Both the position numbers and the translations under genes were made by a program. Under the pieces are notes generated by a model, which saw only the letters and a program-made list of their open reading frames with translations, did no database searches and was not told the DNA's origin. Shown here piece by piece: positions 2,073-25,078 of a stretch of 25,078 bases of DNA (position 1 is the first letter of the stretch; every line of letters starts with the position of its first letter). This DNA comes from a virus: the IMG/VR virus record IMGVR_UViG_3300005735_000046, positions 1 through 25,078 of that record. The stretch is one strand, 5' to 3'.

Positions 2073-2308
2073 ACAAAATGGTAAAAGGACTGGAAGAAGG
2101 AATAGTACTAGTACAGTACGAAGACTTAAGAACAGGCGAAACAAAAGAAAGAGAAATGACTTTAGTACCTGAAAATACTAGAGGCATGGATGCTCGTGCA
2201 TTAAATGATGGCGATAAACTAGGGGGTAGAATTCTTATGTTTGATGTTGAGTTTTCAAAGTGGGCAGATATAAGAGAAGATACAATTATTAGTTGGAAAA
2301 AATACTAA
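2057..2308 (+). CDS. Small WYL_2/DUF2693-like SH3-fold protein, 83 aa
   Basis: A small acidic and basic mixed protein. Its central pattern is a hydrophobic strand (GIVLVQYEDLRTGE), then a KEREMTLVPE strand, and at the end MFDVEFSKW...TIISWKKY. This matches, from memory, the layout of the phage WYL_2 (DUF2693) family: a VTF..KDGT strand, an MRCTL.PE strand, then a V.D...W...R...I strand, predicted as an Sm-like SH3 barrel. Such proteins are common in tailed phages and may bind nucleic acid or modulate transcription, but no role is established. Its stop codon shares one base with the start of the next gene (TAATG), so translation is probably coupled. Confidence 0.55.
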   Translation: MAQDLDKMVKGLEEGIVLVQYEDLRTGETKEREMTLVPENTRGMDARALNDGDKLGGRILMFDVEFSKWADIREDTIISWKKY

Positions 2309-3825
2309 TGTGTGGATTTGTTGTAAGCACTGAAGGAAATAGTATAGATGGCATGATAGATGCACAAAGATTCCGAGGCCCTGATGCGCGTGGAGAAACT
2401 ATTAGATACTTTAATGCATTAACATGGGCTCATGTACTGTTAGATATTTCTGGAGAAAAAGAAGTTCAACCTTATATAACAAGTAAAGGAAATATAATGG
2501 TATTCAATGGAGAAATGTATGATTCCAATATATCAAACGACACTAAATTCTTAGCAGATGGTTATGAAAAATATGGATTTAAGTTTATAGAGTTTACTAA
2601 TTGGCACGGCTCTTTTTGTTATATGGACTATAAAACAGGAATATGTGATATTGTAAGAGACCATTTTGGAGCAAAACCTTTGTGGATAAAAAGAGAAAAA
2701 AATAGTGGTATAACTATAACTACAAGTCTAACAAGTTTTAAAGACGTTAAAGCCCTCCCTTTAGCAGATAAATTTCTTGGCAATGCCATATGGATAGCAC
2801 ATAATAGTCCTTTTGAGGGAGTTAGAAAAGTAGAGCCTGGGCAAGTGTATCATTATAATATAATGTCAGGAGTATTAAAAAGAGGTTTAAATTTGTGGGG
2901 AGGTTACAAAATAGAAAACAATCCTTTTAATCCAGAACAGTTTAAAACTGAGCTAATAAAAGGGATAAGGAAAGTAGCAAAAAATAAACAAAAAACAGCT
3001 ATATTTTTAAGTGGTGGATTAGACAGTACTTGCGCATTAGGTATAGTAAAAGATATGGGGTTAGATTTAACCGCTTATATTTGTGCATATTCTGATGAAG
3101 AAGGAGATATGTATAGACAAGAAATATTTGCACAAGAATCAAAATTAGCAATTAAAACTTGTAAAGAGTGGGGAGTTCCCTACAAAGTAGTAACTCTAAG
3201 TAAACAACAAAGAGATGATTATGGAAAAGCTTGGATGGAAGGCAATAATTATATATGGAATGATAATAATAGAAGAGCCCCTAGATATGCTCTAGCCAAA
3301 GCAGCGTCTGAGGATGGGTGTAAGGTTGTCTTAACAGGAGACAGTGCAGATGAGTTTTTTAGTGGGTACCAACATCATTCTAAAAGATATACAAAAGGCT
3401 ATAATGATAGTTGGAAAAAAGAATGGCCTAAAAAATATACTTGGGTAGATGGTGGCATATTTGAGTATGATAAAGAAGGATTTAATTCTACATTATTTAT
3501 AGATTTAATGGTAACAAGTGAAAACAATGTGTTAGCTGCTGACCAGACTTGTGGGTTATTTGGAATGGAATCAAGGCCTGTATATCTTACTCAAGAATTT
3601 GCTAGATATATTTATCAACAAGATGGTAAGATAAAAATGAAATTACATAAAGACTATTCTTCAGGAACATATAAATACTTACTAAGAGAAGTTATGAAAG
3701 ACTATCTGCCACAACACATAAGAGAAAGAAAAAAGAAATGTGGGTGGTCTAGTCCTTGGGATAATAATTCCGATGAAATGAAAAAACAAAATAAAAAATT
3801 ATGGGAAGAATGGACAAAACAATAG
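2308..3825 (+). CDS. asnB: Asparagine-synthetase-like glutamine amidotransferase (AsnB family), 505 aa
   Basis: Two-domain enzyme. The N-terminal class II glutamine amidotransferase domain begins MCGFVV; Cys2 is the nucleophile exposed after Met removal. This fixes the start at 2308 rather than at an in-frame TTG at 2293. Further motifs are RGPD (23-26), NGE (67-69) and RDHFGAKPLW. The C-terminal AsnB domain has the ATP-binding PP-loop SGGLDS and the conserved-type segment TGDSADEFFSGY. The family makes asparagine from aspartate, glutamine and ATP, or amidates other carboxylates by the same chemistry. Length is close to AsnB (about 550 aa) but compact. The position equivalent to Arg49 of E. 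coli AsnB, which holds the glutamine carboxylate, seems to be Leu (HVLLDIS against HERLSIV). The substrate is therefore open: free asparagine supply or amidation of a surface or virion component. It lies next to a cytidylyltransferase gene. Confidence 0.88.
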   Translation: MCGFVVSTEGNSIDGMIDAQRFRGPDARGETIRYFNALTWAHVLLDISGEKEVQPYITSKGNIMVFNGEMYDSNISNDTKFLADGYEKYGFKFIEFTNWHGSFCYMDYKTGICDIVRDHFGAKPLWIKREKNSGITITTSLTSFKDVKALPLADKFLGNAIWIAHNSPFEGVRKVEPGQVYHYNIMSGVLKRGLNLWGGYKIENNPFNPEQFKTELIKGIRKVAKNKQKTAIFLSGGLDSTCALGIVKDMGLDLTAYICAYSDEEGDMYRQEIFAQESKLAIKTCKEWGVPYKVVTLSKQQRDDYGKAWMEGNNYIWNDNNRRAPRYALAKAASEDGCKVVLTGDSADEFFSGYQHHSKRYTKGYNDSWKKEWPKKYTWVDGGIFEYDKEGFNSTLFIDLMVTSENNVLAADQTCGLFGMESRPVYLTQEFARYIYQQDGKIKMKLHKDYSSGTYKYLLREVMKDYLPQHIRERKKKCGWSSPWDNNSDEMKKQNKKLWEEWTKQ

Positions 3826-4217
3826 GATTTACTTGTGGAGCATTTGATTTGCTACACGCAGGTCATATAGTAATGCTCAAAGAAGCAAAAGAAAACTGTG
3901 ACTATTTAATAGTAGGATTACAGACAGACCCTAGTCTAGATAGACAAGAAAAGAATATACCTGTTCAATCTGTATTTGAAAGATATATACAACTACGAGC
4001 AGTAAAGTATGTAGACGAGATTATTCCATATGATACAGAACAAAGTCTACTAGACTTACTAGAGGCTACAGAAATACATCTTCGATTTGTCGGAGAGGAT
4101 TATGTCGAGAGGCATTTTACAGGCAAAGGACTGCATGAGATTTTCTACACAAGTAGACAGCACTCTTTTTCTAGTACGAATTTAAGAAATAAGATACATG
4201 AAAGCAGTTCTAAGTAA
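3810..4217 (+). CDS. Cytidylyltransferase-like nucleotidyltransferase (TagD/glycerol-3-phosphate type), 135 aa
   Basis: Shows the nucleotidyltransferase signature GAFDLLHAGH near the N-terminus (GxFDxxHxGH) and the C-terminal SSTNLR segment (the family's STTxLR), with the usual length of about 130 residues. Family members join CTP to glycerol 3-phosphate, phosphoethanolamine or phosphocholine, or ATP to heptose phosphate, producing an activated alcohol or sugar for surface polymers. Start: ATG 3810 gives MDKTIGFTCGAFD, the usual spacing before the motif. ATG 3801 would add three residues and is equally possible. The gene overlaps the AsnB-like gene and the helicase gene. The precise substrate cannot be read from sequence. 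It fits a set of phage-encoded glycan genes seen elsewhere in the window. Confidence 0.85.
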   Translation: MDKTIGFTCGAFDLLHAGHIVMLKEAKENCDYLIVGLQTDPSLDRQEKNIPVQSVFERYIQLRAVKYVDEIIPYDTEQSLLDLLEATEIHLRFVGEDYVERHFTGKGLHEIFYTSRQHSFSSTNLRNKIHESSSK

Positions 4218-5481
4218 CAGAATATATATGAGTGTAACTAAAGAGTTACATAATTCTATAGAAAAAGAACTTACTTATACTATTGCTCCTCGTATACCAT
4301 CAGACCCACCTTTAGTATTTAAAACAATACGATTTATAAAAGAAGGTTTGATATCCATACCTATCGGAAGAATGGATTTAATCCCAGATGATTACGAAAT
4401 AGTAGATAAGAGAAATGAGTCGCCCATAGAACATGCAGATTTTAAGTTTGATTTACGACCAAGCCAAAAAGCGGTTCATGATGAGATTAATGACAATGCT
4501 ATAGTTAACGCTTGGGTAAGTTGGGGAAAGACTTTTACAGGTTTAGCTATCGCAGCGAAGCTTGGTCAGAAAACACTTGTTGTTACCCACACTACCAACT
4601 TAAGAAATCAGTGGGAAAAAGAAGTACGAAAATGTTTTGGAATTGAACCAGGCAGAATAGGTAGTGGAGACTTCAAGATTGACGCTCCTATAGTTATCGG
4701 GAATATTCAGAGTTTATACCGAAAAATGGACGACATAAAACAAGAATTTGGAACATTGATTTTAGATGAGATGCACCATGTTAGTAGTCCTACTTTTACG
4801 CGTATAGTAGACGAAATGCCTACTCGTTATAAGATAGGACTGACAGGAACATTAGAGCGTAAAGATGGTAGGCACGTAGTTTTTAGAGATTATTTTGGGA
4901 ATAATGTTTTTAAACCGCCTAAAGAGAATTATCTTATTCCATCTATACATATAGTAAAATCAGATATAAGATTCTTAGATGGGTCGTTTACGCCATGGGC
5001 AGAAAGAATTAATGACTTGGCATATAAAGAAGAATATGTACATAGTGTAGCTATGATTGCTTCTAAGTATGCAGCTTTAGGACATAATGTATTAGTAGTA
5101 TCAGATAGAGTACTTTTCCTAAAGGCTTGCGCTAGATTAGTAGGAGATAATGCGGTATCAATTACAGGGGACATGGATTTTCAAGAAAGAGAAGATACTA
5201 TGCAACTAATAAAAGGTAAAGATAAAAACATTTTATTTGGAACACAGTCTATTTTTTCAGAGGGAATATCACTAAATGAATTAAGTTGTTTAGTATTAGG
5301 AACGCCAGTTAACAATGAGCCTCTTCTCACGCAGTTAATAGGCAGAGTTATAAGAGAACAAAAGGGAAAAGTACAACCCATAGTGGTTGATATACATTTA
5401 AAAGGAAAAACAGCAACCCGTCAAGCTAATGCTAGAATGGGTTACTATATAAAACAGGATTATGAGGTAAAAATATTATGA
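4198..5481 (+). CDS. SF2 DNA/RNA helicase (UvsW/XPB-like), 427 aa
   Basis: Superfamily 2 motifs in order: LRPSQ (87-90, Q-like), an unusual motif I AWVSWGKT (105-112, Lys111 and Thr112 kept), motif II DEMH (190-193), motif III TGT (216-218, followed by LERKDG), motif V GTQSIFSEGISL (348-359) and motif VI QLIGRVIR (379-386). The order, size and the TLERKDG element are typical of the UvsW/RAD25-type phage helicases, which unwind branched DNA and help restart replication and recombination. Motif I lacks the usual Gly-Ser/Ala-Gly context (VSWGKT). The gene overlaps its neighbours by 20 bp and 4 bp (ATGA). Helicase identity is firm; the branch-migration role is inferred from family. Confidence 0.9.
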   Translation: MKAVLSNRIYMSVTKELHNSIEKELTYTIAPRIPSDPPLVFKTIRFIKEGLISIPIGRMDLIPDDYEIVDKRNESPIEHADFKFDLRPSQKAVHDEINDNAIVNAWVSWGKTFTGLAIAAKLGQKTLVVTHTTNLRNQWEKEVRKCFGIEPGRIGSGDFKIDAPIVIGNIQSLYRKMDDIKQEFGTLILDEMHHVSSPTFTRIVDEMPTRYKIGLTGTLERKDGRHVVFRDYFGNNVFKPPKENYLIPSIHIVKSDIRFLDGSFTPWAERINDLAYKEEYVHSVAMIASKYAALGHNVLVVSDRVLFLKACARLVGDNAVSITGDMDFQEREDTMQLIKGKDKNILFGTQSIFSEGISLNELSCLVLGTPVNNEPLLTQLIGRVIREQKGKVQPIVVDIHLKGKTATRQANARMGYYIKQDYEVKIL

Positions 5482-6422
5482 ACGAAAAATCAAGAGAAAT
5501 CACTCTAAACATAGAGGAAATGCGAAAAAATAAAGTATTTTTAGCTACACCTATGTACGGAGGTATGTGCCATGGACTATATACTAAGTCTTTAATGGAC
5601 ACCACAGGGACAGCTTTATCCCATGGATTATATCTACAAATATACTATATGTTTAACGAAAGCTTAATTACTAGAGCTAGAAATTATTGTGTGGCTAACT
5701 TTTTAAAGAGTGAGTGCGAATACTTACTTTTTGTAGATAGTGATATTGCTTGGGGAGCTATGGATTTGATGTATATGTGGCATCTAATCTCAGAAAATCC
5801 TGAAAAGTACAAAGTACTATGTGCTTTATATCCTAAGAAAACTATAGCTTGGGAGAAAGTATTACATGCAGCAAAAAGTGGTGCATACGACGATGACCCT
5901 AGAGGACTAGAAAAAGTTGCAGGAGATATGGTATTCAATCCTTTGCCTAACGAGTATGAAAATGGGCAAGCTCCTATATATGAGCCTGTAAAAATTAAAG
6001 AAGGTGCAACAGGATTTATGCTTATACACAGGTCTGTATTTGAAGAATATGATAAAGCTCATCCAGAAAGACTATATACTCCTGACCATTTAAGAGAAGG
6101 AGAGTTTGAACGAGGCGAACAGATTATGGCATATTTTGATTGTATAATCAATGACCAAAACAGATATTTAAGTGAAGATTATATGTTTTCGGAAACTGTA
6201 AGAGCATTGGGTATAGATATATGGGCACTGCCTATGGTAGAATTAATGCATTGTGGAGGCTACATATATCAAGGTAGTTTAATTAAAATGGCACAAGCGG
6301 GAGTACACGCTACTTTAGATCCTGCAGATGAAAGATTACTAAGAAAAGCAGGTAAAGGATTAAGTAACCGTCCTGACCCAGGAACTTTGAGTTCCCATAG
6401 TGCTGAGAAAAATAGTTCTTGA
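5478..6422 (+). CDS. GT-A glycosyltransferase (Anp1/MNN9-like or GT2-like), 314 aa
   Basis: The segment TRARNYCVANFL followed by YLLFVDSDIAW (Asp87-Ser88-Asp89, the metal-binding DXD) matches the GT-A architecture of Anp1/MNN9-type and related GT2 transferases: an aRN..v..fl stretch, then LlfvDsDi.w. A downstream KEGATGFMLIHRSVFEEY segment is also typical of phage members of this group (G.G.mlirr.vfe). No transmembrane segment or signal peptide, so cytoplasmic. The start overlaps the helicase stop by ATGA. The stop codon TGA (6420-6422) lies inside the -35 hexamer of the next promoter. Likely transfers a sugar from a nucleotide sugar; donor and acceptor unknown. Confidence 0.78.
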   Translation: MNEKSREITLNIEEMRKNKVFLATPMYGGMCHGLYTKSLMDTTGTALSHGLYLQIYYMFNESLITRARNYCVANFLKSECEYLLFVDSDIAWGAMDLMYMWHLISENPEKYKVLCALYPKKTIAWEKVLHAAKSGAYDDDPRGLEKVAGDMVFNPLPNEYENGQAPIYEPVKIKEGATGFMLIHRSVFEEYDKAHPERLYTPDHLREGEFERGEQIMAYFDCIINDQNRYLSEDYMFSETVRALGIDIWALPMVELMHCGGYIYQGSLIKMAQAGVHATLDPADERLLRKAGKGLSNRPDPGTLSSHSAEKNSS

Positions 6423-15036: not shown

Positions 15037-15251
15037 GCAATAACCAAAAAATTACTATTGACGGTGTAGAGCACGTTGTTAGTGAGTTAACAGAAGACCA
15101 ACAAGCTATAGTTATGTCTATAAATGTGGCGGATGTAGAAATAGATAGATGTAAACATCTTATTGCTATATGCCAAACAGCTAGACAAGCGTACATTAAT
15201 GATTTAGGTAATCAAGTAAATAGTGGCGACGTCGGTGAAGAAGACTCTTAG
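15033..15251 (+). CDS. DUF6447-like small protein, 72 aa
   Basis: Overlaps the nrdB stop by ATGA. The sequence opens KITIDGVEH, then SELTEDQQAIVMSI, then a helical stretch with ICQTARQAYINDLG. This matches, from memory, the DUF6447 pattern (KITIDG.EY..d.LS.eA......q..D.Ei..L...la..QTARnAY...L), a small family found in marine bacteria and phages and predicted to be a short beta unit followed by a helical hairpin. No function is known for the family. The tail is acidic (GDVGEEDS). It sits between nucleotide metabolism and glycosyltransferase genes and gives no clue which it serves. Confidence 0.7.
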   Translation: MSNNQKITIDGVEHVVSELTEDQQAIVMSINVADVEIDRCKHLIAICQTARQAYINDLGNQVNSGDVGEEDS

Positions 15252-16548
15252 ATTTTATATACTTACTTCTGCATCTGGAAGATACTTAGATTGGTTTAAC
15301 CGTACAGGAAAAACCGATACCAGCTTCAAAGCACTGAAATGTCACTTTGATCCTAGGTGGTCTAATATATCATATAAAGATGCAGTAGTAGTAGTAAATA
15401 CATTAAGTAAAGAGTATGAAAAAGAAGTAAGTCAATGGTGTTCAAGTAAAGGAATAGAATGTCATATAACAGAGTCTAATGGCAATCCAGGAAAAGGTAA
15501 AAATGAATTACTAAAAATATTTCAAAAGTCTGATGATGACTATATGGTACAAATAGACGGAGATGATATATTAACCCCTTATGGGGTTAATTTATATAAG
15601 AGTCTTGCAAAAGAAAATGCACCTGACAGTATTATTATTTATCACCAATGGTCACAAAATATAGATAAGTATGGGCAGAGAATATTTGTTAGAATAATGA
15701 ATAACCCTGACAGACCTTCTAATTATAAAAAAGACTATGCTCATTTCGCCACATATGTACCTATGATGTATAAATACCAACAAGAGTATAGAAAGAAAGT
15801 ACAAAAAATGGGCGGTATAAAAAAAGTATGTGATTTATATGCTACCTATACAGGACAAGTACACGCCTTAAACAGAGAGTTAAATGAGACTTATTTTTCT
15901 CATGTAACTAATCAAATGATGGTAGATAATCACTGTAGACCTGTATGGTATTCTAAAAAAGCAGCTAAGTTAAGATTTGATGAAAAAATGAGAATAGGTG
16001 AAGACACAAGATTCTATTTACAATTAAAACATAAACATTACCAAAAAGAATTAGAAGTTAGAAGATTAAAAGAGATTCCCTGTACTTATGTATACAATAA
16101 TATGTATGGCGGTATGGTTGCAGACGAGTCCAATGGCATGACAAATATGGATTGGATGAAATTGTACATGCACAATGTAAGAAAAGATTTAGAAGAAGGA
16201 AGAGTAGGTAAACACCCAAATCTACCTGAACTACCAGTTTTTGTACAAGATGAAGTAAAAGACTATTATATAACGCAAGATTTCGATATAGAAAGATTAG
16301 ACCCAAATAGTAAAGAATATAAAAATATAAAAATGTGTGATGATACTAGGAAAGCACTAAAACAAAAAATAAAACGAATACAAGACGATACTCTTGTACT
16401 AATGCGAAAATTAGTAATGAGTATAGTAGAACGAGGAACACAACCACAGTTAGTATATTTTAAAGACCCTTTAACACCTAATCTTTACTATGCTGTACCT
16501 CAAGATAATAAAATGGAACATTATTTTCAAAAAAGGATAATAGAATGA
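15235..16548 (+). CDS. GT2-like glycosyltransferase with long C-terminal extension, 437 aa
   Basis: GT-A fold pattern: an N-terminal strand (LRFYILTSASGR), then the family segment NGNPGKGKNELLKIFQ preceding DYMVQIDGDDILTPYG. This is the GT2 layout of a conserved N..G.g.arN segment followed by the metal-binding D.DD; here DGDD is at about residues 108-111. The remainder (about 300 residues) is charged, Tyr-rich and unrecognised. Start is uncertain: GTG 15235 (MKKTLRFY) looks natural, GTG 15223 adds four residues, and neither has a clear Shine-Dalgarno. It overlaps the DUF6447-like gene and, by ATGA, the next glycosyltransferase. Donor and acceptor unknown. Confidence 0.78.
   Translation: MKKTLRFYILTSASGRYLDWFNRTGKTDTSFKALKCHFDPRWSNISYKDAVVVVNTLSKEYEKEVSQWCSSKGIECHITESNGNPGKGKNELLKIFQKSDDDYMVQIDGDDILTPYGVNLYKSLAKENAPDSIIIYHQWSQNIDKYGQRIFVRIMNNPDRPSNYKKDYAHFATYVPMMYKYQQEYRKKVQKMGGIKKVCDLYATYTGQVHALNRELNETYFSHVTNQMMVDNHCRPVWYSKKAAKLRFDEKMRIGEDTRFYLQLKHKHYQKELEVRRLKEIPCTYVYNNMYGGMVADESNGMTNMDWMKLYMHNVRKDLEEGRVGKHPNLPELPVFVQDEVKDYYITQDFDIERLDPNSKEYKNIKMCDDTRKALKQKIKRIQDDTLVLMRKLVMSIVERGTQPQLVYFKDPLTPNLYYAVPQDNKMEHYFQKRIIE
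15571..15590 (+). other. Perfect intragenic stem-loop (8-bp arms, 4-base loop)
   Basis: TTAACCCC-TTAT-GGGGTTAA lies inside the GT2-like gene just after the DGDD codons. The arms are perfectly complementary with four G-C pairs at the loop end, and no T-run follows, so it is not a standard terminator. It could slow ribosomes or be a processing site in the long unit 3 transcript, or it may be a chance result of codons for Leu-Thr-Pro-Tyr-Gly-Val-Asn. Confidence 0.5.
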
Positions 16549-17174
16549 AAATCTTTATAGGCTACGAATCTGCATACCCAGAAATGTTTGACGTCTGTGC
16601 AAAAAGCATACTTCGTTACAATTCCAGTCATGAAATCATACCACTCAAAAAATCGGAAATATCCGAATATACTCGTCCATTTCAGAACGAGAGTACAGAA
16701 TTTGCCTTTACTCGTTTTCTAGTACCACAGCTCTGTGACTATGAAGGCGAAGCTTTATTCTGTGATGGAGATTTCTTATGGCTCTGTGACCCTGAAGAAG
16801 TTATGGATTATTTTTCCGATGAACATACAGTTCATGTAGTAAAACATCCTAGTTTCCTCGTCAAACCTAAGAAAATGAAAAACAAGAAAAACCATGCTTA
16901 TCCTAGAAAATACTGGTCAAGTCTTATGCTTTTTAATAATCCTAAGTGTAAAGAACTTACTTATGATTATGTAAACCAAGCCCCAGCGGGTGCATTGCAT
17001 GAGTTACGTTGGGCAGATAGTATAGGGGAACTTCCCGCGCAGTACAATGCCATGGTAAATTATTACAAATTCAAACAACCAAAAGCTCTACACTACACAG
17101 ATGGTGGGCCTTGGTTAAATATAAACGAGTGTTCGGAGTACACAGCAAAATGGATGACAGTTTACAAAAGCTAA
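16545..17174 (+). CDS. GT8-like glycosyltransferase, 209 aa
   Basis: GT-A features: FTRFLVPQLCDYEGEALFCDGDFLWLCD, where the DGD (74-76) is the metal and nucleotide-sugar DXD in the usual R..iP.l.....alY.D.D context. Next come RKYWSSLMLFNNP (the family's S.mlfN segment) and ALHYTDGGPW, matching the terminal H.TdG.PW typical of GT8-like and phage or capsule transferases. It has a good ribosome binding site (AAAAGGA about 7 bases upstream) and starts by ATGA overlap. Short for GT8 but with all three conserved blocks. Likely transfers a hexose; acceptor unknown. It is one of three consecutive glycosyltransferase genes ending the plus-strand unit. Confidence 0.85.
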   Translation: MKIFIGYESAYPEMFDVCAKSILRYNSSHEIIPLKKSEISEYTRPFQNESTEFAFTRFLVPQLCDYEGEALFCDGDFLWLCDPEEVMDYFSDEHTVHVVKHPSFLVKPKKMKNKKNHAYPRKYWSSLMLFNNPKCKELTYDYVNQAPAGALHELRWADSIGELPAQYNAMVNYYKFKQPKALHYTDGGPWLNINECSEYTAKWMTVYKS

Positions 17175-17812
17175 CAAAAGATAAAAATATTATACTTGTG
17201 GGAAATTCAGTAGAGATTCTACAGTATGATTTTGGGGAATACATAGATAGTTTTGACACAGTTGTACGATTTGGAAAAGGTATTCCCGAAGATAAACTAC
17301 ATCAACATATAGGAAGTCGTACAGATATATGGATTACAGGGTGGCTTCGAGTAAATTTACACGAGCATTTTAAAGATGCGTATCCTTTATTTAATCGTTC
17401 TCGTATACACTTGGACAAATACCCTGACCACAGAGGACCTCCGCCTTGGGGGCATGATAATGATATGTTTGATGACAACGAGTTAATGAAAATATTTGAA
17501 TTAGTGGGAGCAAAGAATAATGCTTATGGAAATGGTGCAAGACCAAGTGCAGGGTTTTTGGGTATATTGTTTTTCTTGCAGAAGTGCAAGTGTAAGAGTA
17601 TAACTTTAATTGGTTTTGATTTCTTTGCGAAAAAACTACCTTTTAAAACAGGAGGGGATTACCCATCAAGTTGGCACCTTCCCATAAATTCAACTAATAA
17701 AAATCCCCACAATCCTAATGAAGCTAAGCTAGTTAAGAAGTGGGAAGAAAAAGGTAAATTACATTGGAAAATTCTTTCCGACCTAAATGATGAGATGTTA
17801 AAGTTTACCTAA
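17150..17812 (+). CDS. GT29 sialyltransferase-like glycosyltransferase, 220 aa
   Basis: Starts at ATG 17150 with GGAG upstream; an in-frame TTG at 17111 is less likely. The N-terminal segment VGNS...GEYIDSFDTVVRFGKG (17-44) matches sialylmotif L (VGNs....G..ID..D.V.R.N). RPSAGFLG...CKSITLIGFDFF (131-159) matches sialylmotif S (P..G...l..al..C..v.lyGF.f), and His205 in a C-terminal LHWKIL context resembles sialylmotif VS. GT29 enzymes use CMP-sialic acid or related CMP-sugars. Distant members occur in marine bacteria and viruses, where donors are untested. No membrane anchor, so soluble, unlike Golgi enzymes. It ends 15 bp past the stop of the convergent minus-strand gene. Confidence 0.75.
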   Translation: MDDSLQKLTKDKNIILVGNSVEILQYDFGEYIDSFDTVVRFGKGIPEDKLHQHIGSRTDIWITGWLRVNLHEHFKDAYPLFNRSRIHLDKYPDHRGPPPWGHDNDMFDDNELMKIFELVGAKNNAYGNGARPSAGFLGILFFLQKCKCKSITLIGFDFFAKKLPFKTGGDYPSSWHLPINSTNKNPHNPNEAKLVKKWEEKGKLHWKILSDLNDEMLKFT

Positions 17813-18718
17813 CCTATATCCCACTTTTAATAGTTTACTGGCAGTTTCTTTTTGTCTGTTTGATTTGTATAGTAAATTTTCACACATTCTAGCATTTCTA
17901 TAATTTACAGGTATTCTTGGAATTAAATTAGCATATAAATCCCAAGGAGTAGACAATTGCTGTCCTGCACTCATTTTAGTATATCCATTTTCTAATGCTT
18001 TTGTTGGTAGTGCAATACTCCAAGATTTTCTTAACATTACATTGTAATTTAAATATTCTTTAGCAGGTAAGGCATCCCATTGAATTAGCAAGTCACTTTT
18101 ACCATTCATATATCTAGGCAATAGTCCTCTTTCTCCTTCATGTAATTTTGTGAAGAAGTATTTATTAGTAGAAGCCAATACTCTACTATCATAATCATCA
18201 TAAAAACCATTAGGATAAAACAAGTCATTATCATTTGCATCTTTTAATAAATCATAATTTATCATAAAAAACTCAGTATCCCAATTTGCAGGCATATCTG
18301 CTTTTGCAAAATCTAACATTCCATAATAACTAGAGAATACTTTGTGCCCTACAAATACTTTCTTTCTAGATAAGTGAGCCATTTTTGTTTGGAAAAAACT
18401 TTCTTTTGGTATTTCTTGTGTCCATCCACTTTTTAGAAATAGTCTATTACCTCCTGCGTATAAAATTCTTTTATGTAATCCTCTATCTTTCCAATGCAGT
18501 CTAAGATGTTGGATTGCTCTAGCTGCATAGTCTTTTTTCCAATAGCTTTCGTATATTGTAACATTTGGTATATTTTCAAGTATCCAGGTAACAGGTAAAT
18601 CCGCATAGTCATCCTCATCTACATATAAATGTAAACGATACTCTTCGTCCTTGTCTATAAGAGAAGCTAAAGTGAAGAAACTCCACGTAGGCTTCCATGT
18701 ATGTACTATTTCAATCAT
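17798..18718 (-). CDS. Unrecognised protein, possible glycosyltransferase, 306 aa
   Basis: The last gene of the minus-strand block; the tail overlaps the plus-strand GT29-like gene by 15 bp, so the two transcripts can pair at their 3' ends. The N-terminal part (IEIVHTWKPTWSFFTLASLIDKDEEYRLHLYVDEDD, given in outline) and the later KRILYAGGNRLFLKSGW resemble the strand order of a GT-A transferase, but the expected DXD position reads GGN, so activity cannot be claimed. Other parts are rich in Tyr, Trp and Asp (NGFYDDYDSR). No signal peptide or membrane helix. It overlaps the preceding gene by 8 bp. It may act on fibre or surface glycans given its neighbours, or be a structural accessory; unknown. 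Confidence 0.7.
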   Translation of the reverse strand: MIEIVHTWKPTWSFFTLASLIDKDEEYRLHLYVDEDDYADLPVTWILENIPNVTIYESYWKKDYAARAIQHLRLHWKDRGLHKRILYAGGNRLFLKSGWTQEIPKESFFQTKMAHLSRKKVFVGHKVFSSYYGMLDFAKADMPANWDTEFFMINYDLLKDANDNDLFYPNGFYDDYDSRVLASTNKYFFTKLHEGERGLLPRYMNGKSDLLIQWDALPAKEYLNYNVMLRKSWSIALPTKALENGYTKMSAGQQLSTPWDLYANLIPRIPVNYRNARMCENLLYKSNRQKETASKLLKVGYRLGKL

Positions 18719-19592
18719 TGTGTTTTCTATACTCCCAAAAATTATTTATGTATAAATCCATTCTATGCTTTGCATCTTTATCAAAGGCAAATATTATGCC
18801 AGAGTTTTTTGCTGAAAGTATTTTTTCTATGCCTGTATAACCATTTGAGTTTCCACACGCATGATAAATGCTTTCATATGTTAATAAACTTTTTTCTCTT
18901 TCTTTTTTTGAATAACTTATCATTCTTAAATGTTTTTTAAGTAATAATGCTATAAGTCCCATCTCACTATTGGGCATAGTAGCCACGTGAGAACATTTCA
19001 TTAGTAATTCCATTCCACCGCTTCTTTTATTTAATACTTTATCTTTACCAAATTTTCTTTTTAATTTGGCTATAAATAATTCCGTAGTAATAGGATGCGG
19101 CTTAATAACATAACCTTCTTCTATGCATTGTTCTATTCTACCCCAGTGTACACACTTCTCTTGTTTACTAAGAAGATTTGTTCCTGGAGGAAACACTACT
19201 TTATCATATTCTTCTTCAATCTCTTTTAAGTGATATTTATTTCGTAAGTTATTTTTAATTTTTTGTAATCGTTCCTTGTCAATTTCAACGTCTGATTTCA
19301 CTATTGCGTTCATTAGTTTATCATTGATTAGTACTGAATTTATTCTCATATATATTCCTGCACCTAAAAAATCTGTATATAACCATTTTCTAATAGTCAT
19401 AAGTTCATTAGTATTAAACCATACATCATAAACAAAATCTACACCTTCTCTAGACTCAGGTATTATTAATTTTTTTAAATTAGATAATTCATTCAAATCT
19501 TTTTGTGGTCTTATGCAAGATCCTGATTTAAATATATGAGTTGACTGGTCTCCGAGTTCTTCAACACTCGACATTGGTACTAGTTTACCCAT
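18711..19592 (-). CDS. KPHP-motif GT-B-like transferase, 293 aa
   Basis: The C-terminal half carries KPHP (164-167) after a hydrophobic strand, and about 40 residues later VATMPNSEMGLIALLLKK (203-220). That pair of segments, K-P-H-P then S/N-S-...-G..AlllgK, is the usual nucleotide-binding pair in GT-B-fold transferases of capsule and teichoic acid synthesis (CDP-glycerol glycerophosphotransferase, polysialyltransferase-like and capsule synthesis families). The N-terminal half is not recognised. No membrane segment. The start overlaps the coiled-coil gene by 8 bp and the end overlaps the next gene by 8 bp. Together with the plus-strand cytidylyltransferase it suggests transfer of a CDP- or CMP-activated unit, which is inference. 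Confidence 0.62.
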   Translation of the reverse strand: MGKLVPMSSVEELGDQSTHIFKSGSCIRPQKDLNELSNLKKLIIPESREGVDFVYDVWFNTNELMTIRKWLYTDFLGAGIYMRINSVLINDKLMNAIVKSDVEIDKERLQKIKNNLRNKYHLKEIEEEYDKVVFPPGTNLLSKQEKCVHWGRIEQCIEEGYVIKPHPITTELFIAKLKRKFGKDKVLNKRSGGMELLMKCSHVATMPNSEMGLIALLLKKHLRMISYSKKEREKSLLTYESIYHACGNSNGYTGIEKILSAKNSGIIFAFDKDAKHRMDLYINNFWEYRKHND

Positions 19593-19776: not shown

Positions 19777-22700
19777 TTATTCCGCCCACTTGTTACCATC
19801 CCAGAAAGAGGCGTCAAATGCTTCTGCGCTAGAAACTTCTGTATCAAATATAGTCCCAGCTGCTGATGCAGTAATTCTTTCAAATACTTGTGTAGATGTA
19901 TCGAAAGTTGTTGTAGTTGTAGGAGTTGTTGTCCTAGTTGTATCTGATAATCTACTTGTTTCTATTGTAGTGGTAGTAGTTCTACCTGTTGCATACGTTG
20001 TAGTTCTAGTTGTATTAAATACTGTTGAAGTTCCAAATACTGTTGTTCTGCTTGTGTCTGTACTTCTTGTAGTATTAAATGTAGAGGTCGTACTTCTATC
20101 TGTGCCTGTAGTTCTACTTGTTAATGAAGCTCTGGAAGTTTCAAATGTAGATACTGTATCTTGAGAAGTAACTGTTCCTCTAGTTGTAACAGAGTCTCTA
20201 GAAGTTGCAAATGTAGATACTGTGTCTTTAACTGTAACTGTTCCTCTACTTGTTTCAGAAATTCTAGTAGTATTAAAAGTGGATACTGTATCTTTAGAAG
20301 TAATTGTTCCTCTAGTTGTTCCCGTTGTAGTATTAGTGTCAAATGTAGTAGTAGTGCTTTTACTTGTTCCAGTAGACCTAGTTGTAATGGTTCCTTGAGA
20401 AGTAGCATAAGTTGTTGTTGTTGCTCTACTTGTAAGAGTTACATTACTTGTACCAGTAGCTAAAGTAGTGTTAAATGTAGTTACAGTGTTTTTACTTGTG
20501 CCAGTTGTTCTAGTTGTATCTGAGACTCTAGAAGTATTAAATGTTGTACTTGTATCTTTACTTGTTCCAGTAGACCTAGTTGTAACTGTTCCTCTACTTG
20601 TATTAAATGTTGTTGTTGTACCTCTATCTGTTATTGTTCCCCGTGAAGTATTGAATACTGTTGTTGTTGCTCTACTTGTACCTGTGCTTCTAGAAGACAG
20701 TCTTGAGGTTTGATATGCTGTAGTAAACTCTGTAGTTCTACTTGTATTTGTAGTCTGTGTAGTAGTATAGCTTGTTGACTGTGAAGTACCTGTTGTTCTT
20801 GATGTATTTGTCGCAAAAGATGTATTATACGCAGTTGACTGTGAAGTACCTGTGGCTCTCGCTGTATTCGTAGCTTGTGTAGTAGTATAACTTGTTGACT
20901 GTGAAGTGCCTGTGGCTAAACTTGTATTCGTACTTCTTGTAGTAGCAAATGAAGTGTTATTTGTAAATGTAGTTACCATACTTGTATTCGTACTTCTTGA
21001 AGTAGCAAATGAAGTGTTATTTGTAAATGCAGTTAGTCTACTTGTATTCGTACTTCTTGTAGTAGCAAATGAAGTGTTGTCTACATATGCGGTCAATCTA
21101 CTTGTATTTGTAGAATTTGTAAATGCTGTATTATCTGCATACTCTGTTGTTCTTGCAGTGTTTGTATTATAAGCAGTAGACCTAGTAGTATTATCTGCAT
21201 ACTGTGTTACTCTTGCAGTGTTTGTATTTCTTGTTGTAGCTTGTGAAGTGTTGTCTACATATGCAGTTAGTCTACTTGTATTTGTAGAATTTGTAAATGC
21301 TGTATTTCTTGCAGTATTTGTAGCAAATGATGTATTTCTACTTGTATTTGTTGATCTGGCTGTGTTTGTAGCAAATGCTGTGTTATCTACATATGCAGTT
21401 AACTGACTTGTATTTGTACTTCTTGTAGTACTTCTTGTAGTATTATCTGTAAATTGCGTAACTCTACTTGTATTTGTACTTCTTGTAGTATTATTTGTAA
21501 ATCCTGTAGAATTTGTAAATGCTGTATTATTTGTAAATGCTGTATTTCTTGCAGTATTTGTAGCTTGGGCTGTATTATATGTATAAGTAGTTGTAGTGTT
21601 TGTATTATACACCGTCTGAGTATAACCAGAATAATAAGTAAAGTATGTATATGTAAATGCGGTCGTAGTATTTCTTGCAGTATTTGTCGCAAATGAAGTA
21701 TTATTTGTAAATCCTGTACTTCTTGCTGTATTTGTGCTTCTTGCTGTGGCTGTATTTCTTACTGTGTTCGTAGCAAAGGCTGTATTAACGGCTGCTAACC
21801 CCGTGTTCCTACTTGTATTTGTACCGAATCCTGTATTATAAGAAGTATTAACGCTATATTGAGAAGTTCTTGATGTATTTGTACTTCTTGTAGTATTATT
21901 TGTAAATGCTGTATTATCTGCATACTCTGTGAGTCTACTTGTATTATTTGTAAATCCTGTACTTCTTGCTGTATTTGTATTTACTGCGGCTAATCCTGTA
22001 TTTCTACTTGTGTTTGTAGCAAATGCTGTGTTATAAGAAGTTGAGTTAGTAAACCCTGTACTTCTACTTGTGTTTGTTGAGAACGCTGTATTTCTAGTTG
22101 TACTATTAGTAAATCCTGTACTTCTACTTGTGTTTGTGCTTCTTGCAGTGTTTGTATTTACTGCCGCTAAGCCTGTATTTCTAGTTGTATTTGTAGCCTG
22201 CGTTGTAGTATAACTTGTATTTACTGCAGCTAACCCTGTATTTCTATTTGTGTTTGTAGACTGCGTTGTAGTATAACTTGTATTTACTGCAGCTAAAGCT
22301 GTGTTCTTACTTGTATTTGTAGACTGCGTTGTATTATAACTTGTAGATGCTGTAAATGTAGTTATTGTGTTAAAGGTTGTTGTTCTTGTTGTTGCAAAAG
22401 AAGTGTTATCTACATATGCAGTCGATGTATTAAATGTTGTTGTTCTTGTTGTAGACTGCGAAGTATTATCAGTGTAAGCTGTAGTTGTATCAAACGTTGT
22501 AGTTCTTGTAGTAGCAAATGATGTGCTATTTGTAAATTCAGTTAATCTATTTGTTAATATTACTGTATCAAAAAACGTTGTAAATGTGGTTGTTGTTTCA
22601 TACGCAGTCGTTGTACTTCTTGTAGTATTAAATACTGTAGTAGTAGTAAAATCGGTTGTTGTAGTAAGCGTTGTATTAAAGGTTGTTGTTGTAGTAAATG

Positions 22701-23541
22701 TAGTTGTTGTATTATACGCTGTAGTTGTGTTTCTGCTAGTTTCAAAGGTTGTAGTAGTTTCAAAGGTTGTAGTTGTATTAAATGCTGTAGTTGTGCTTTT
22801 AGTAGTATTAAAAGTTGTCGTAGTTGTAAATGCAGTTGTTGTATTAAAGGCAGTCGTTGTTGTAGTATTTGTATCAAACGTAGTAGTTGTAGTAAATGCT
22901 GTAGTTGTATTAAACGCTGTAACTGTACCCATCGCTGTAGCATAAGTCGTAGTTGTATTAAACGCTGTAGTAGTAGTAAAAGCGGTAGTCGTTGTGATAG
23001 TAGTATTAAACGTAGTAGTTGTGTTAAACGCAGTGGTTGTTGTAAAGTCGGTTGTTGTAGTTGTATTTGTATCAAACGTTGTAGTTGTGTTAAACGCAGT
23101 TGTGGTTGTGAAATCTGTAACCGTAGTAAGAGTTGTGTTGAAAGTTGTAGTAGTATTAAACGCTGTAGTTGTTGTAAATGCAGTTGTAGTATTTACTGTA
23201 GTTGCAAATATTGTGGTAGTTGCGAATGTAGTTACTAAATTAGTTTCTGTGCTTCTTGATGTATTAAACTCTGTTGTTCTGCTAGTATCGAAAGTTGTTG
23301 TTGTATTATAATTTGTATCAAAAGCAGTGGTGGTGTTGAATGTTGTAACAATATCAGTTGTATTTGTTACATTTGATGTTGCAGTGTTTCTTGACGTTTC
23401 ATGAATAGCAGAAAACGGCCCAGCTAAGTTACCGTTATCGTTTACGTATACTTCATTAACCCTTCGTATTGTTCCGCCATCGTTGATTGCAAGAAAGGAT
23501 ATCTGACGTAATGTGCCACTATCATTAACATATATTGCCAT
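19777..23541 (-). CDS. Giant Thr/Asn-rich repeat fibre-like protein, 1254 aa
   Basis: The N-terminus (residues 1-40) has three beta-type repeats (IYVNDSGTLR, AINDGGTIR, VYVNDNGNL) of a kind seen at attachment ends of phage fibre proteins. Residues about 50-1210 are almost wholly Thr, Asn, Ser, Ala and Arg with regularly placed Phe or Tyr, in units of 20-22 residues such as STNTSRLTAYVDNTSFATTR. In residues 106-320 aromatics recur at gaps of 6, 10 and 6 (period 22). The C-terminus (about 1211-1254, ending FWDGNKWAE) is non-repetitive. No Cys seen, one His, very few Pro; no signal peptide. The regular period suggests a fibrous beta structure, probably trimeric. NTS and NTT triplets (N-x-S/T) occur dozens of times. 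It is flanked by fibre and glycosyltransferase genes. Fibre identity is inferred from position and architecture. Confidence 0.8.
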   Translation of the reverse strand: MAIYVNDSGTLRQISFLAINDGGTIRRVNEVYVNDNGNLAGPFSAIHETSRNTATSNVTNTTDIVTTFNTTTAFDTNYNTTTTFDTSRTTEFNTSRSTETNLVTTFATTTIFATTVNTTTAFTTTTAFNTTTTFNTTLTTVTDFTTTTAFNTTTTFDTNTTTTTDFTTTTAFNTTTTFNTTITTTTAFTTTTAFNTTTTYATAMGTVTAFNTTTAFTTTTTFDTNTTTTTAFNTTTAFTTTTTFNTTKSTTTAFNTTTTFETTTTFETSRNTTTAYNTTTTFTTTTTFNTTLTTTTDFTTTTVFNTTRSTTTAYETTTTFTTFFDTVILTNRLTEFTNSTSFATTRTTTFDTTTAYTDNTSQSTTRTTTFNTSTAYVDNTSFATTRTTTFNTITTFTASTSYNTTQSTNTSKNTALAAVNTSYTTTQSTNTNRNTGLAAVNTSYTTTQATNTTRNTGLAAVNTNTARSTNTSRSTGFTNSTTRNTAFSTNTSRSTGFTNSTSYNTAFATNTSRNTGLAAVNTNTARSTGFTNNTSRLTEYADNTAFTNNTTRSTNTSRTSQYSVNTSYNTGFGTNTSRNTGLAAVNTAFATNTVRNTATARSTNTARSTGFTNNTSFATNTARNTTTAFTYTYFTYYSGYTQTVYNTNTTTTYTYNTAQATNTARNTAFTNNTAFTNSTGFTNNTTRSTNTSRVTQFTDNTTRSTTRSTNTSQLTAYVDNTAFATNTARSTNTSRNTSFATNTARNTAFTNSTNTSRLTAYVDNTSQATTRNTNTARVTQYADNTTRSTAYNTNTARTTEYADNTAFTNSTNTSRLTAYVDNTSFATTRSTNTSRLTAFTNNTSFATSRSTNTSMVTTFTNNTSFATTRSTNTSLATGTSQSTSYTTTQATNTARATGTSQSTAYNTSFATNTSRTTGTSQSTSYTTTQTTNTSRTTEFTTAYQTSRLSSRSTGTSRATTTVFNTSRGTITDRGTTTTFNTSRGTVTTRSTGTSKDTSTTFNTSRVSDTTRTTGTSKNTVTTFNTTLATGTSNVTLTSRATTTTYATSQGTITTRSTGTSKSTTTTFDTNTTTGTTRGTITSKDTVSTFNTTRISETSRGTVTVKDTVSTFATSRDSVTTRGTVTSQDTVSTFETSRASLTSRTTGTDRSTTSTFNTTRSTDTSRTTVFGTSTVFNTTRTTTYATGRTTTTTIETSRLSDTTRTTTPTTTTTFDTSTQVFERITASAAGTIFDTEVSSAEAFDASFWDGNKWAE
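19890..23400. repeat. Coding tandem repeats of 60-66 bp inside the Thr-rich gene
   Basis: The DNA repeats with the protein. A 66-bp period is seen where GTAGATAC-like strings recur at 20147, 20213 and 20279. A 60-bp period is seen where CTTGTATTCGTACTTCTTG-like strings recur at 20921, 20981 and 21041. Another 66-bp array spans about 22582-23226. Copies differ mostly at third codon positions, with some exact blocks. The plus strand here is strongly G+T-rich. The arrays are candidates for length change by recombination or slippage. Confidence 0.9.
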
Positions 23542-23544
23542 GTT

Positions 23545-23766
23545 TTAACTCGAATAAACAAACCATACATGACCATCACTCGTGCCTGTGGTATTTGTTG
23601 GTGCTGTTGTTGTTATTGTAAAGGGTAGTCTAGCTTTTGCGATAGTACCTGAGCCTACTTTATTAGCAGCTACTGCACCTTCAAAGTTCCTACTAGCATC
23701 GATAACATCACTACCATCAATTTTTAATCCTGCGTCTTCGATATTAAAGTCTAATTTTTGTCCCAT
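23545..23766 (-). CDS. Small structural/fibre-associated protein, 73 aa
   Basis: Reads MGQKLDFNIEDAGLKIDG..., contains VAANKVGSGTIAKARLPF, then a Thr-rich stretch (ITTTAPTNTTGT), and ends SDGHVWFVYSS. The VGSGTIAKARL element resembles the repeat units of the upstream fibre gene, and the aromatic C-terminus resembles tail-fibre-associated proteins. It lies one base downstream of the fibre gene and three bases upstream of the giant Thr-rich gene. A fibre hinge, connector or domain split from the fibre is likely; exact role unknown. Confidence 0.7.
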   Translation of the reverse strand: MGQKLDFNIEDAGLKIDGSDVIDASRNFEGAVAANKVGSGTIAKARLPFTITTTAPTNTTGTSDGHVWFVYSS

Positions 23767-23767
23767 T

Positions 23768-25078
23768 TTATACCTCTATTGTTGTCCTGATAAATTTGAA
23801 CGCCATACTATCTGTACTTGCTGGCGTTGCTCTTAATCTTATATTACCTGATACTAAGTCTGCATCAAATGCTGCTTGTGCTCCATTTTCAAATATAGAT
23901 GCGTACTGTGTTAAGTATACATCTGTACCATCATGGAATAATAAAATTTCTATTGCTTGAAAATCTGTATCTGTTGAATTGTGTACTTGTACTAAGTACT
24001 TAGCAGTTCTAAATGTAGCTGCTGCAAAAGTATCTAGTGTAAATTGTGCAGTTGAAGTTGAACTTCCTGTACCTACATCCATACCAGCTACACTGTTCAT
24101 ATGAAATCTTTGAGGTGCTGCTGTATCATTAATACCTAAATGACCGTTTGTTCTAAATCTAGTATCATCTTGTAAATTTACTACTGCATCATTATCAAAA
24201 CTAATTGTACCTGTCATAGTTTTACCATCAAGTGCTGCACTTGATAATTGTGTAGTTGTTACAGAGTTATTTGCAATCTCACTTGACCCAACATTGTTTG
24301 CTGCTATCTTAGCTGATGTTACAGAGTTAGCTCCTAGTTTTGCATTTGTTACATTACTATTAGCAATCTTTGCCGTTGTTACTTGTGAAGTTCCAATATG
24401 AATAGTATCAATACTACCCGATACGAGTTCTGATGAATCTACTGAGTTTGCAGCTAGTTCTGATGAACCTACTTGTCCTGTTCCTATTTGTGTGCTAGTA
24501 ATAGAACCGTCTGCTATCTTAGCTGCTGTTACACAGTTATCCGCTAATTCTGCTGTTCCTACAATACCGTTTTGGATTATACCAGCTGTGACCGAGTTGA
24601 GTGCTATTTCGCTTGTTCCGACAGCATTACCAGCTATCTTTGCACTTGTTACTGAGTTTGCTCCAATATGTATAGTATCAATTGAACCTGTTACGAGTTC
24701 TGCGCTATCTACTGAGTTACTTGCTAATTCTGTTGCTGTTATAGACCCTGCAACTATTTTTGACTGAGTTACTGAATTATCTGCTAAATCTGCTGTTACA
24801 ATACTACCGTTTACTATCTTTGATGAGTTTACAGAGTTTGCCGCTAGTTTACCTAGTGTTACTTGTGCGTCTGCAATATGTGCTGTATCAATACTGCCAT
24901 CTACATAATGTTCTGAATCTATAGAATCATCTGCAATTTTTGTGCCATCTACTGCATCAGCGGCTAACTTTCCATTAGTAACTGCTAAAGCATCTATACG
25001 ATTAGTAGTTACTTGCTGTGAGCCTATGTGTCTTGTTAAAACTGCACCTGATATAATTTTTGTTGCATTTATATTGTT
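23768..25078 (-). CDS. Phage tail fibre protein, C-terminal 436 aa (N-terminus outside window)
   Basis: The minus frame is open from the window edge to the stop at 23768-23770; an internal ATG at 24217 is not the true start, because the frame continues in register upstream. Residues in the window begin with 28 consecutive 10-residue units, consensus S-V/I-T/D-T/S-x-K/E/H-I/L-A-x-N/G (examples SVTSAKIAAN, SIDTIHIGAN), followed by a non-repetitive domain (TGTISFDNDAVVNLQDD, then FRTNGHLGINDTAAPQRF, then a beta-rich tail ending FIRTTIEV). Such decapeptide arrays preceding a globular tip are typical of trimeric phage fibre shafts. Role: adsorption or host recognition. Fibre identity rests on architecture. 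Confidence 0.82.
   Translation of the reverse strand, partial: NNINATKIISGAVLTRHIGSQQVTTNRIDALAVTNGKLAADAVDGTKIADDSIDSEHYVDGSIDTAHIADAQVTLGKLAANSVNSSKIVNGSIVTADLADNSVTQSKIVAGSITATELASNSVDSAELVTGSIDTIHIGANSVTSAKIAGNAVGTSEIALNSVTAGIIQNGIVGTAELADNCVTAAKIADGSITSTQIGTGQVGSSELAANSVDSSELVSGSIDTIHIGTSQVTTAKIANSNVTNAKLGANSVTSAKIAANNVGSSEIANNSVTTTQLSSAALDGKTMTGTISFDNDAVVNLQDDTRFRTNGHLGINDTAAPQRFHMNSVAGMDVGTGSSTSTAQFTLDTFAAATFRTAKYLVQVHNSTDTDFQAIEILLFHDGTDVYLTQYASIFENGAQAAFDADLVSGNIRLRATPASTDSMAFKFIRTTIEV
24236..25075 (-). repeat. 28-unit, 30-bp coding repeat in fibre gene
   Basis: Reading the minus strand, 28 units of exactly ten codons run without indels from the window edge to residue SVTTTQLSSA, ending at 24236. 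Hydrophobic residues sit at positions 2 and 7 of each unit, with Asn or Gly at position 10 (turn). A few units are divergent, such as SIDSEHYVDG and QVTTNRIDAL. The exact ten-residue register suggests a regular beta shaft with one unit per structural step. Confidence 0.88.

Follow-up and report, generated by a model that had tools for sequence, protein, structure and literature searches.

Several systems are known in which glycosyltransferases are dedicated to long repetitive proteins or to virion proteins. In the serine-rich repeat glycoproteins of Gram-positive bacteria (Fap1, GspB, SRRPs), a very long Ser/Thr repeat substrate is encoded beside glycosyltransferase genes and is O-glycosylated inside the cell (PMC5207161; PMC6973325). 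These proteins are exported cell-wall adhesins with an accessory Sec system. In mycobacteriophages, phage-encoded glycosyltransferases modify virion proteins, with glycans at the C-termini of capsid and tail-tube subunits (Freeman et al. 2023, cited in PMC12619734). Phages also use glycosyltransferases on DNA and on host antigens (reviewed in PMC12619734). Among enzymes, the beta-Kdo transferases WbbB and KpsC, the CDP-glycerol polymerase TagF, GT52 and the polysialyltransferases act on sugars or lipids rather than on protein. Finally, T5-like phages carry an L-shaped tail fibre module.

The locus described here resembles each of these only in part. A stretch of 25,078 nucleotides from a marine phage (IMG/VR record IMGVR_UViG_3300005735_000046; hereafter the window) encodes a very long, threonine-packed, fibre-like protein, followed by a gene, c1, for a predicted GT-B glycosyltransferase. 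The Ser/Thr repeat (49% Ser+Thr) and the directly linked glycosyltransferase gene, its class assigned by prediction, are shared with the serine-rich repeat systems. However, no accessory Sec export or cell-wall anchor gene was found among the window proteins scanned or in the conserved gene order, the repeat follows a Thr-x-bulky rule, the nearest folds of the enzyme are Kdo transferases rather than GtfA/B, and no shared sequence was found. In contrast to the mycobacteriophage case, a whole fibre would be an acceptor array with one dedicated linked enzyme. With the T5 module it shares fibre genes in a T5-like phage and, in related loci, an upstream relative of the L-shaped-fibre assembly protein, although the shaft sequence was unrelated in all searches made. 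A literature search, limited to open-licence papers, found no description of Thr-rich phage fibres with linked transferases.

Sequence grammar of the Thr-ladder protein

The ladder gene and its parts lie on the minus strand as follows.
19777..23541 (-), Thr-ladder fibre gene, ATG to stop, 1254 aa (stop codon at 19777-19779)
23392..23541 (-), conserved N-terminal cap, residues 1-50 (MAIYVNDSGTLRQ...NEVYVNDNGNLAGPF), the probable attachment end, from an alignment of 38 homologs
19915..23391 (-), shaft, residues 51-1209, of tetrads xTxZ and hexads xTxTxZ, with about 194 T-x-Z sites
19780..19914 (-), conserved C-terminal cap, residues 1210-1254 (FERITAS..GTIFDTEV..FWDG..W), from the same alignment

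A preliminary description of the sequence reported aromatic residues at gaps of 6, 10 and 6 (period 22) over residues 106-320, units of 20, 21 or 22 residues elsewhere, and no Cys with almost no Pro or His. This observation was confirmed. The protein contains 488 Thr (39%), 130 Asn and 125 Ser, but no Cys, two Pro and one His. Aromatic gaps between residues 106 and 320 run 6,10,6,6,10,6 without a break until the last two (to about residue 304), and the lag-22 autocorrelation of aromatics in this region is 0.96. From residue 979 to 1155 aromatics recur exactly every 22 residues.

The mixture of 20-, 21- and 22-residue units is also real, but all of these follow one simpler grammar of tetrads (xTxZ) and hexads (xTxTxZ), where Z is F, R, Y, Q or K, so that 22 = 6+6+6+4, 20 = 6+4+6+4 and 16 = 6+6+4. 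Gaps between bulky residues (F, Y, W, R, K, Q, H, M) are 4 or 6 in 81% of cases, against 17% in shuffled sequences (maximum of 1000 shuffles, 25%), and Thr is found two residues before Z (Z-2) in 189 of 197 cases. There are 194 T-x-Z sites, against 86 in shuffles (maximum 107 of 2000). Furthermore, neighbouring 22-mers of the 106-320 region are mostly as similar or more similar in protein than in DNA (for example 77% against 65%, and 82% against 74%), so recent DNA duplication alone does not explain the pattern, which points to selection on the protein pattern.

Family, gene context and predicted structure

Family and structure searches with the ladder protein returned no match in PHROGs, Pfam, PDB sequences or 50,697 phage isolate records. 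The N-terminal cap gave only insignificant hits against isolates (E 0.02 or worse), and the C-terminal cap gave none in bacterial genomes. In IMG/VR, 49 loci hold homologs, of which the full-length members run from 761 to 1621 aa with fixed N- and C-terminal caps and a variable shaft. Gene order in this family is constant, comprising a tail fibre with AKIADGS repeats, a 73-aa ORF, the ladder fibre, c1 and c2, then on the other strand c3, c4 and often c10. The neighbouring features in the window are as follows.
23768..25078 (-), c5, upstream tail fibre with AKIADGS-type repeats, cut by the window end; its relative in L001, a related locus, matches PHROG tail fiber families
23545..23766 (-), c6, 73-aa ORF between the two fibre genes
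18711..19592 (-), c1, glycosyltransferase-like protein (predicted GT-B, HP motif), 293 aa, 184 nt after the fibre gene on the same strand; phrog_26179
17798..18718 (-), c2, 306 aa, unknown function, overlapping c1 by 8 nt, present in all 44 marine loci that have c1; no Pfam, PHROG or PDB hit
17111..17812 (+), c3, sialyltransferase-like (GT29 motif), convergent with c2; PF00777 E=1.5e-7, over cut-off, and weak PDB sialyltransferase hits
16545..17174 (+), c4, GT8/Caps_synth-like, probable glycosyltransferase; PF05704 0.007 and PF01501 0.019, both below cut-off
15223..16548 (+), c10, GT2-like, probable glycosyltransferase, not in all loci; PF00535 0.0055, below cut-off
3801..4217 (+), nucleotidyltransferase of the heptose-1-P / glycerol-3-P class, a possible donor-making enzyme; PF01467 6e-15, with TIGR02199 and TIGR01518 below cut-off

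The contig of L042, a relative, has a portal about 40% identical to those of T5-like phages. No tail sheath or T4-like major capsid was found in eight related contigs, although the capsid search had no positive control. Upstream genes match tail-fibre PHROGs, among them L-shaped fibre assembly. Thus, the ladder protein is placed in the fibre module of a T5-like marine siphophage.

The preliminary description did not recognise a characterised fold and suggested a new fibrous beta architecture (solenoid or triple-stranded shaft). This interpretation was only partly supported. A fibre-like protein of an unrecognised family is supported by its position behind a tail-fibre gene, its conserved caps and the absence of matches in the libraries searched. 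That the 20-22-residue period marks a new beta fold is not supported, as the period is special to some lineages. Structure prediction of the shaft had been proposed as a check, and AlphaFold2 run on residues 860-1254 (the C-terminal 395 residues) as a monomer with 21 homologous sequences gave pLDDT 31 and pTM 0.21. This argues against an easily predicted monomeric solenoid but does not separate disorder from an intertwined, obligate trimer. Neither a sequence match nor a confident predicted fold was obtained for known fibre folds (solenoid, triple beta-helix, T4/T5 fibres). The preliminary description also missed the most telling feature, the linked glycosyltransferase-like gene.

Linkage of c1 to Thr-ladder genes

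Among isolates, c1 is matched only by diverged hypothetical proteins, in the Caulobacter podoviruses Lullwater, Quill, ERS and BL199, the T4-like Caulobacter phage Cr30, T4-like Vibrio phages of the KVP40 kind and Stenotrophomonas phage DLP_6. Homology between lineages was supported by profile-profile alignment (hhalign E=4.5e-22 and 2.6e-27). In Lullwater the gene directly before c1, gp41, is a Thr-ladder ORF next to the tail fiber gene, and is the only ladder ORF among 37. In KVP40 the only ladder ORF among 299, KVP40.0254, lies two genes before c1. Ladders also lie before c1 in Cr30, QD01, ERS, BL199 and Quill, and in F86, D479 and D484, where the ladder ORF was left unannotated. DLP_6 initially appeared to be a counter-example with no ladder gene next to c1. 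However, its ladder is the C-terminal extension (about residues 710-1288) of a protein annotated as baseplate wedge, about 15 kb before c1 if the terminally repeated genome is joined. In the KVP40 group the pair lies outside the annotated tail-fibre genes. The gene after c1 in KVP40 was rejected as a relative of c2 (hhalign 2%), and also of c4.

To avoid starting from c1, IMG/VR was searched by a DNA motif for Y-N-T-T-T-T-x-N-T, which gave 93 loci with a ladder ORF. A profile built from 24 c1 proteins of separate origin detected c1 in 73 of them, always downstream on the same strand, with a median gap of 38 nt and 71 within 300 nt. The other 20 loci end 0-1,094 nt after the ladder, whereas all 35 loci with 4.5 kb or more downstream have c1. 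Of the 73, 53 are not flagged as the window's own family, the marine family accounting for about 20. A second motif (TSRTTSRT) served as a control, and none of 96 ladder-free phage loci carried c1. Two loci from this search with a ladder both had c1, although these show the same ladder and the same c1 score and may be one phage; there c1 is 690 nt away and not downstream. An independent profile, phrog_26179, also recognises the c1 proteins of the ladder loci. Loci from metagenomes are partly redundant, so these counts are not independent events and no p-value is given.

Predicted function of c1 and conservation in the ladder

The AlphaFold2 model of c1 has pLDDT 79 and pTM 0.81. Its top PDB folds are GT-B transferases (E 6.7e-4 to 8e-4), with the beta-Kdo transferase WbbB (6.7e-4) and KpsC (7.5e-4) best, followed by TagF. 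However, similarity is modest (TMq 0.35-0.42; TM-scores to solved entries 0.28-0.42). A viral structure library returned an unnamed viral protein (TM 0.76) and the Vibrio phage form (0.70). Weak Pfam hits point mostly to GT52 (5e-4 at best), Capsule_synth (0.0016 at best) and alpha-2,8-polysialyltransferase, families that use CMP-activated acidic sugars through an HP motif. No c1 member scanned passes a curated Pfam cut-off for a transferase, and no NCBIfam hit to a transferase was obtained, so the assignment is a prediction. Across 21 diverse c1 proteins, D56, Y120, G137, N139, K164, H166, P167, T169, E210 and G265 are invariant, including the GxN and KxHPxT motifs and the acidic residues D56 and E210.

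In 24 c1-linked ladder proteins, spacing and parity differ widely, with even gaps making up from 29% to 96%, which led to the rejection of period 22 as a general signature of a fold. In contrast, Thr at Z-2 exceeds shuffles in all of them. At T+2, F, Y, W, R, K and H are about twofold enriched, and L, D, G, P and C are depleted. A fixed acceptor rule with free spacing fits the target of an enzyme better than a fixed fold does. N-linked sequons are unlikely to be the driver, as Asn is not the conserved residue.

Proposed role and alternative explanations

The preferred explanation, with a probability of about 0.6, is that the gene encodes a virion fibre, probably a side or tail fibre of a T5-like marine siphophage, whose shaft is an array of T-x-Z acceptor sites. 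In this view the ladder protein would be made late in infection and c1 would attach a sugar to many of its Thr residues in the infected cell before assembly. In the window's lineage c3, c4, c10 and perhaps c2 would extend the glycan, the nucleotidyltransferase at 3801-4217 might supply an activated sugar, and the coated fibre would then join the virion. The result would be a stiff, sugar-coated fibre that could aid adhesion, shield the virion or resist proteases. The analysis itself establishes the sequence rule, the conserved caps, the family and the strict two-gene linkage across unrelated phages, while the identity of c1 as a GT-B transferase with a CMP- or CDP-sugar type of donor site rests on prediction. 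That c1 acts on the ladder, that Thr is the acceptor and carries an O-glycan, that the ladder is in the virion of this phage, and what the glycan does are inferred, without biochemical or mass-spectrometric evidence. Gene adjacency can also indicate a chaperone or a co-injected factor, and the shaft is rich in aromatics and lacks Pro, unlike mucins.

An unlikely but not negligible alternative is that the ladder is a purely structural shaft (an intertwined triple beta-strand rod or solenoid) and that c1 is a fibre-specific assembly factor that has kept a GT-B fold but not its activity. The strict 4/6 spacing and alternation over more than 1000 residues in the window family, the conserved end caps and the tail-fibre setting are consistent with this, but spacing and parity are not conserved among c1-linked ladders, c1 keeps invariant motif residues typical of HP-motif transferases, and no solenoid was predicted for the C-terminal 395 residues. 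It is less likely still that c1 and its neighbours modify something else, such as a host surface glycan or phage DNA, with adjacency reflecting a shared late operon. Phages do use glycosyltransferases in these ways, and c3, c4 and c10 lie on the opposite strand; however, c1 follows ladder genes in unrelated phages with otherwise different neighbours, was absent from the 96 ladder-free loci, and lies beside the only ladder ORF of the genome in KVP40 and Lullwater. A disordered low-complexity tether produced by repeat expansion, with no specific modification, would fit the low AlphaFold2 confidence, the very simple composition and the variable length, but appears the least likely, given that Thr at Z-2 is kept in 96% of positions checked and neighbouring repeats are mostly more alike in protein than in DNA, and it leaves the linked c1 unexplained.

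Protein glycosylation with a dedicated enzyme is already described, whereas a recurrent phage module pairing a Thr ladder with c1 has not been named in the libraries used here. It is judged slightly more likely than not that this represents a widespread phage glycoprotein system, in which proteins or protein extensions made of T-x-[FYWRKH] acceptor ladders are each served by a dedicated protein O-glycosyltransferase of a new family (c1, phrog_26179), moved as a two-gene cassette among siphoviruses, podoviruses and myoviruses. Its potential to be a system of its own is real but unproven. The matching PHROGs are listed as 'unknown function', one ladder was named 'cell wall mannoprotein' by automatic annotation, and three Vibrio phages have it unannotated. 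Isolated relatives, namely Lullwater on Caulobacter, QD01 on Vibrio natriegens, and DLP_6, make the hypothesis testable. If c1 glycosylates the ladder, phages of several morphotypes carry a portable fibre-glycosylation cassette, which would explain an odd class of Thr-rich virion genes, give a compact enzyme with a simple acceptor rule for Thr O-glycosylation, and suggest that receptor binding and shielding of some phages depend on sugars that genome-based models ignore.

Additional ladder and c1 loci

In the deposited genomes of Vibrio phages F86, D479 and D484, the Thr-ladder ORFs were left unannotated or replaced by small ORFs (L139:3113–3670, L140:3167–3679 and L141:3162–3695, respectively), in each case shortly before c1, the predicted glycosyltransferase gene. 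In the KVP40-like Vibrio phages OM782678, ON190024, JN849462 and MW824377, the ladder protein is annotated as ‘cell wall mannoprotein’, which is probably a composition-driven misnomer. In Stenotrophomonas phage DLP_6, which also carries c1, a protein annotated as baseplate wedge (AAY80_265; L162:43408–47274) has a C-terminal extension of several hundred residues made of Thr ladder. Among the ladder loci from IMG/VR (L264–L356), 31 of 93 hold more than one ladder ORF (e.g., an MRWLWNRIDFWNT type about 2–4 kb before c1), while other loci have an MPNTSRST type directly before c1.

A conserved unknown protein follows c1 in all Vibrio phages examined (e.g., KVP40.0257 at L134:6533–7165), and profile comparison found it unrelated to c2 or c4, two genes of the marine phages. 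In the phage of the window, a possible further glycosyltransferase (a weak Anp1 hit) and an asparagine-synthase-like protein were observed (window positions 5478–6422 and 2293–3825). In the G001 contig, a relative of the window, ORFs that look like curlin-repeat and CsgG-like proteins, judged by eye alone, were seen in the phage contig (L052:11026–14392). In addition, a c1 relative 90% identical to the type of IMG/VR ladder locus L267 lies at L357, on a contig binned as a Flavobacteriales MAG (TMED123); this contig is possibly phage DNA and may hint at a host group.
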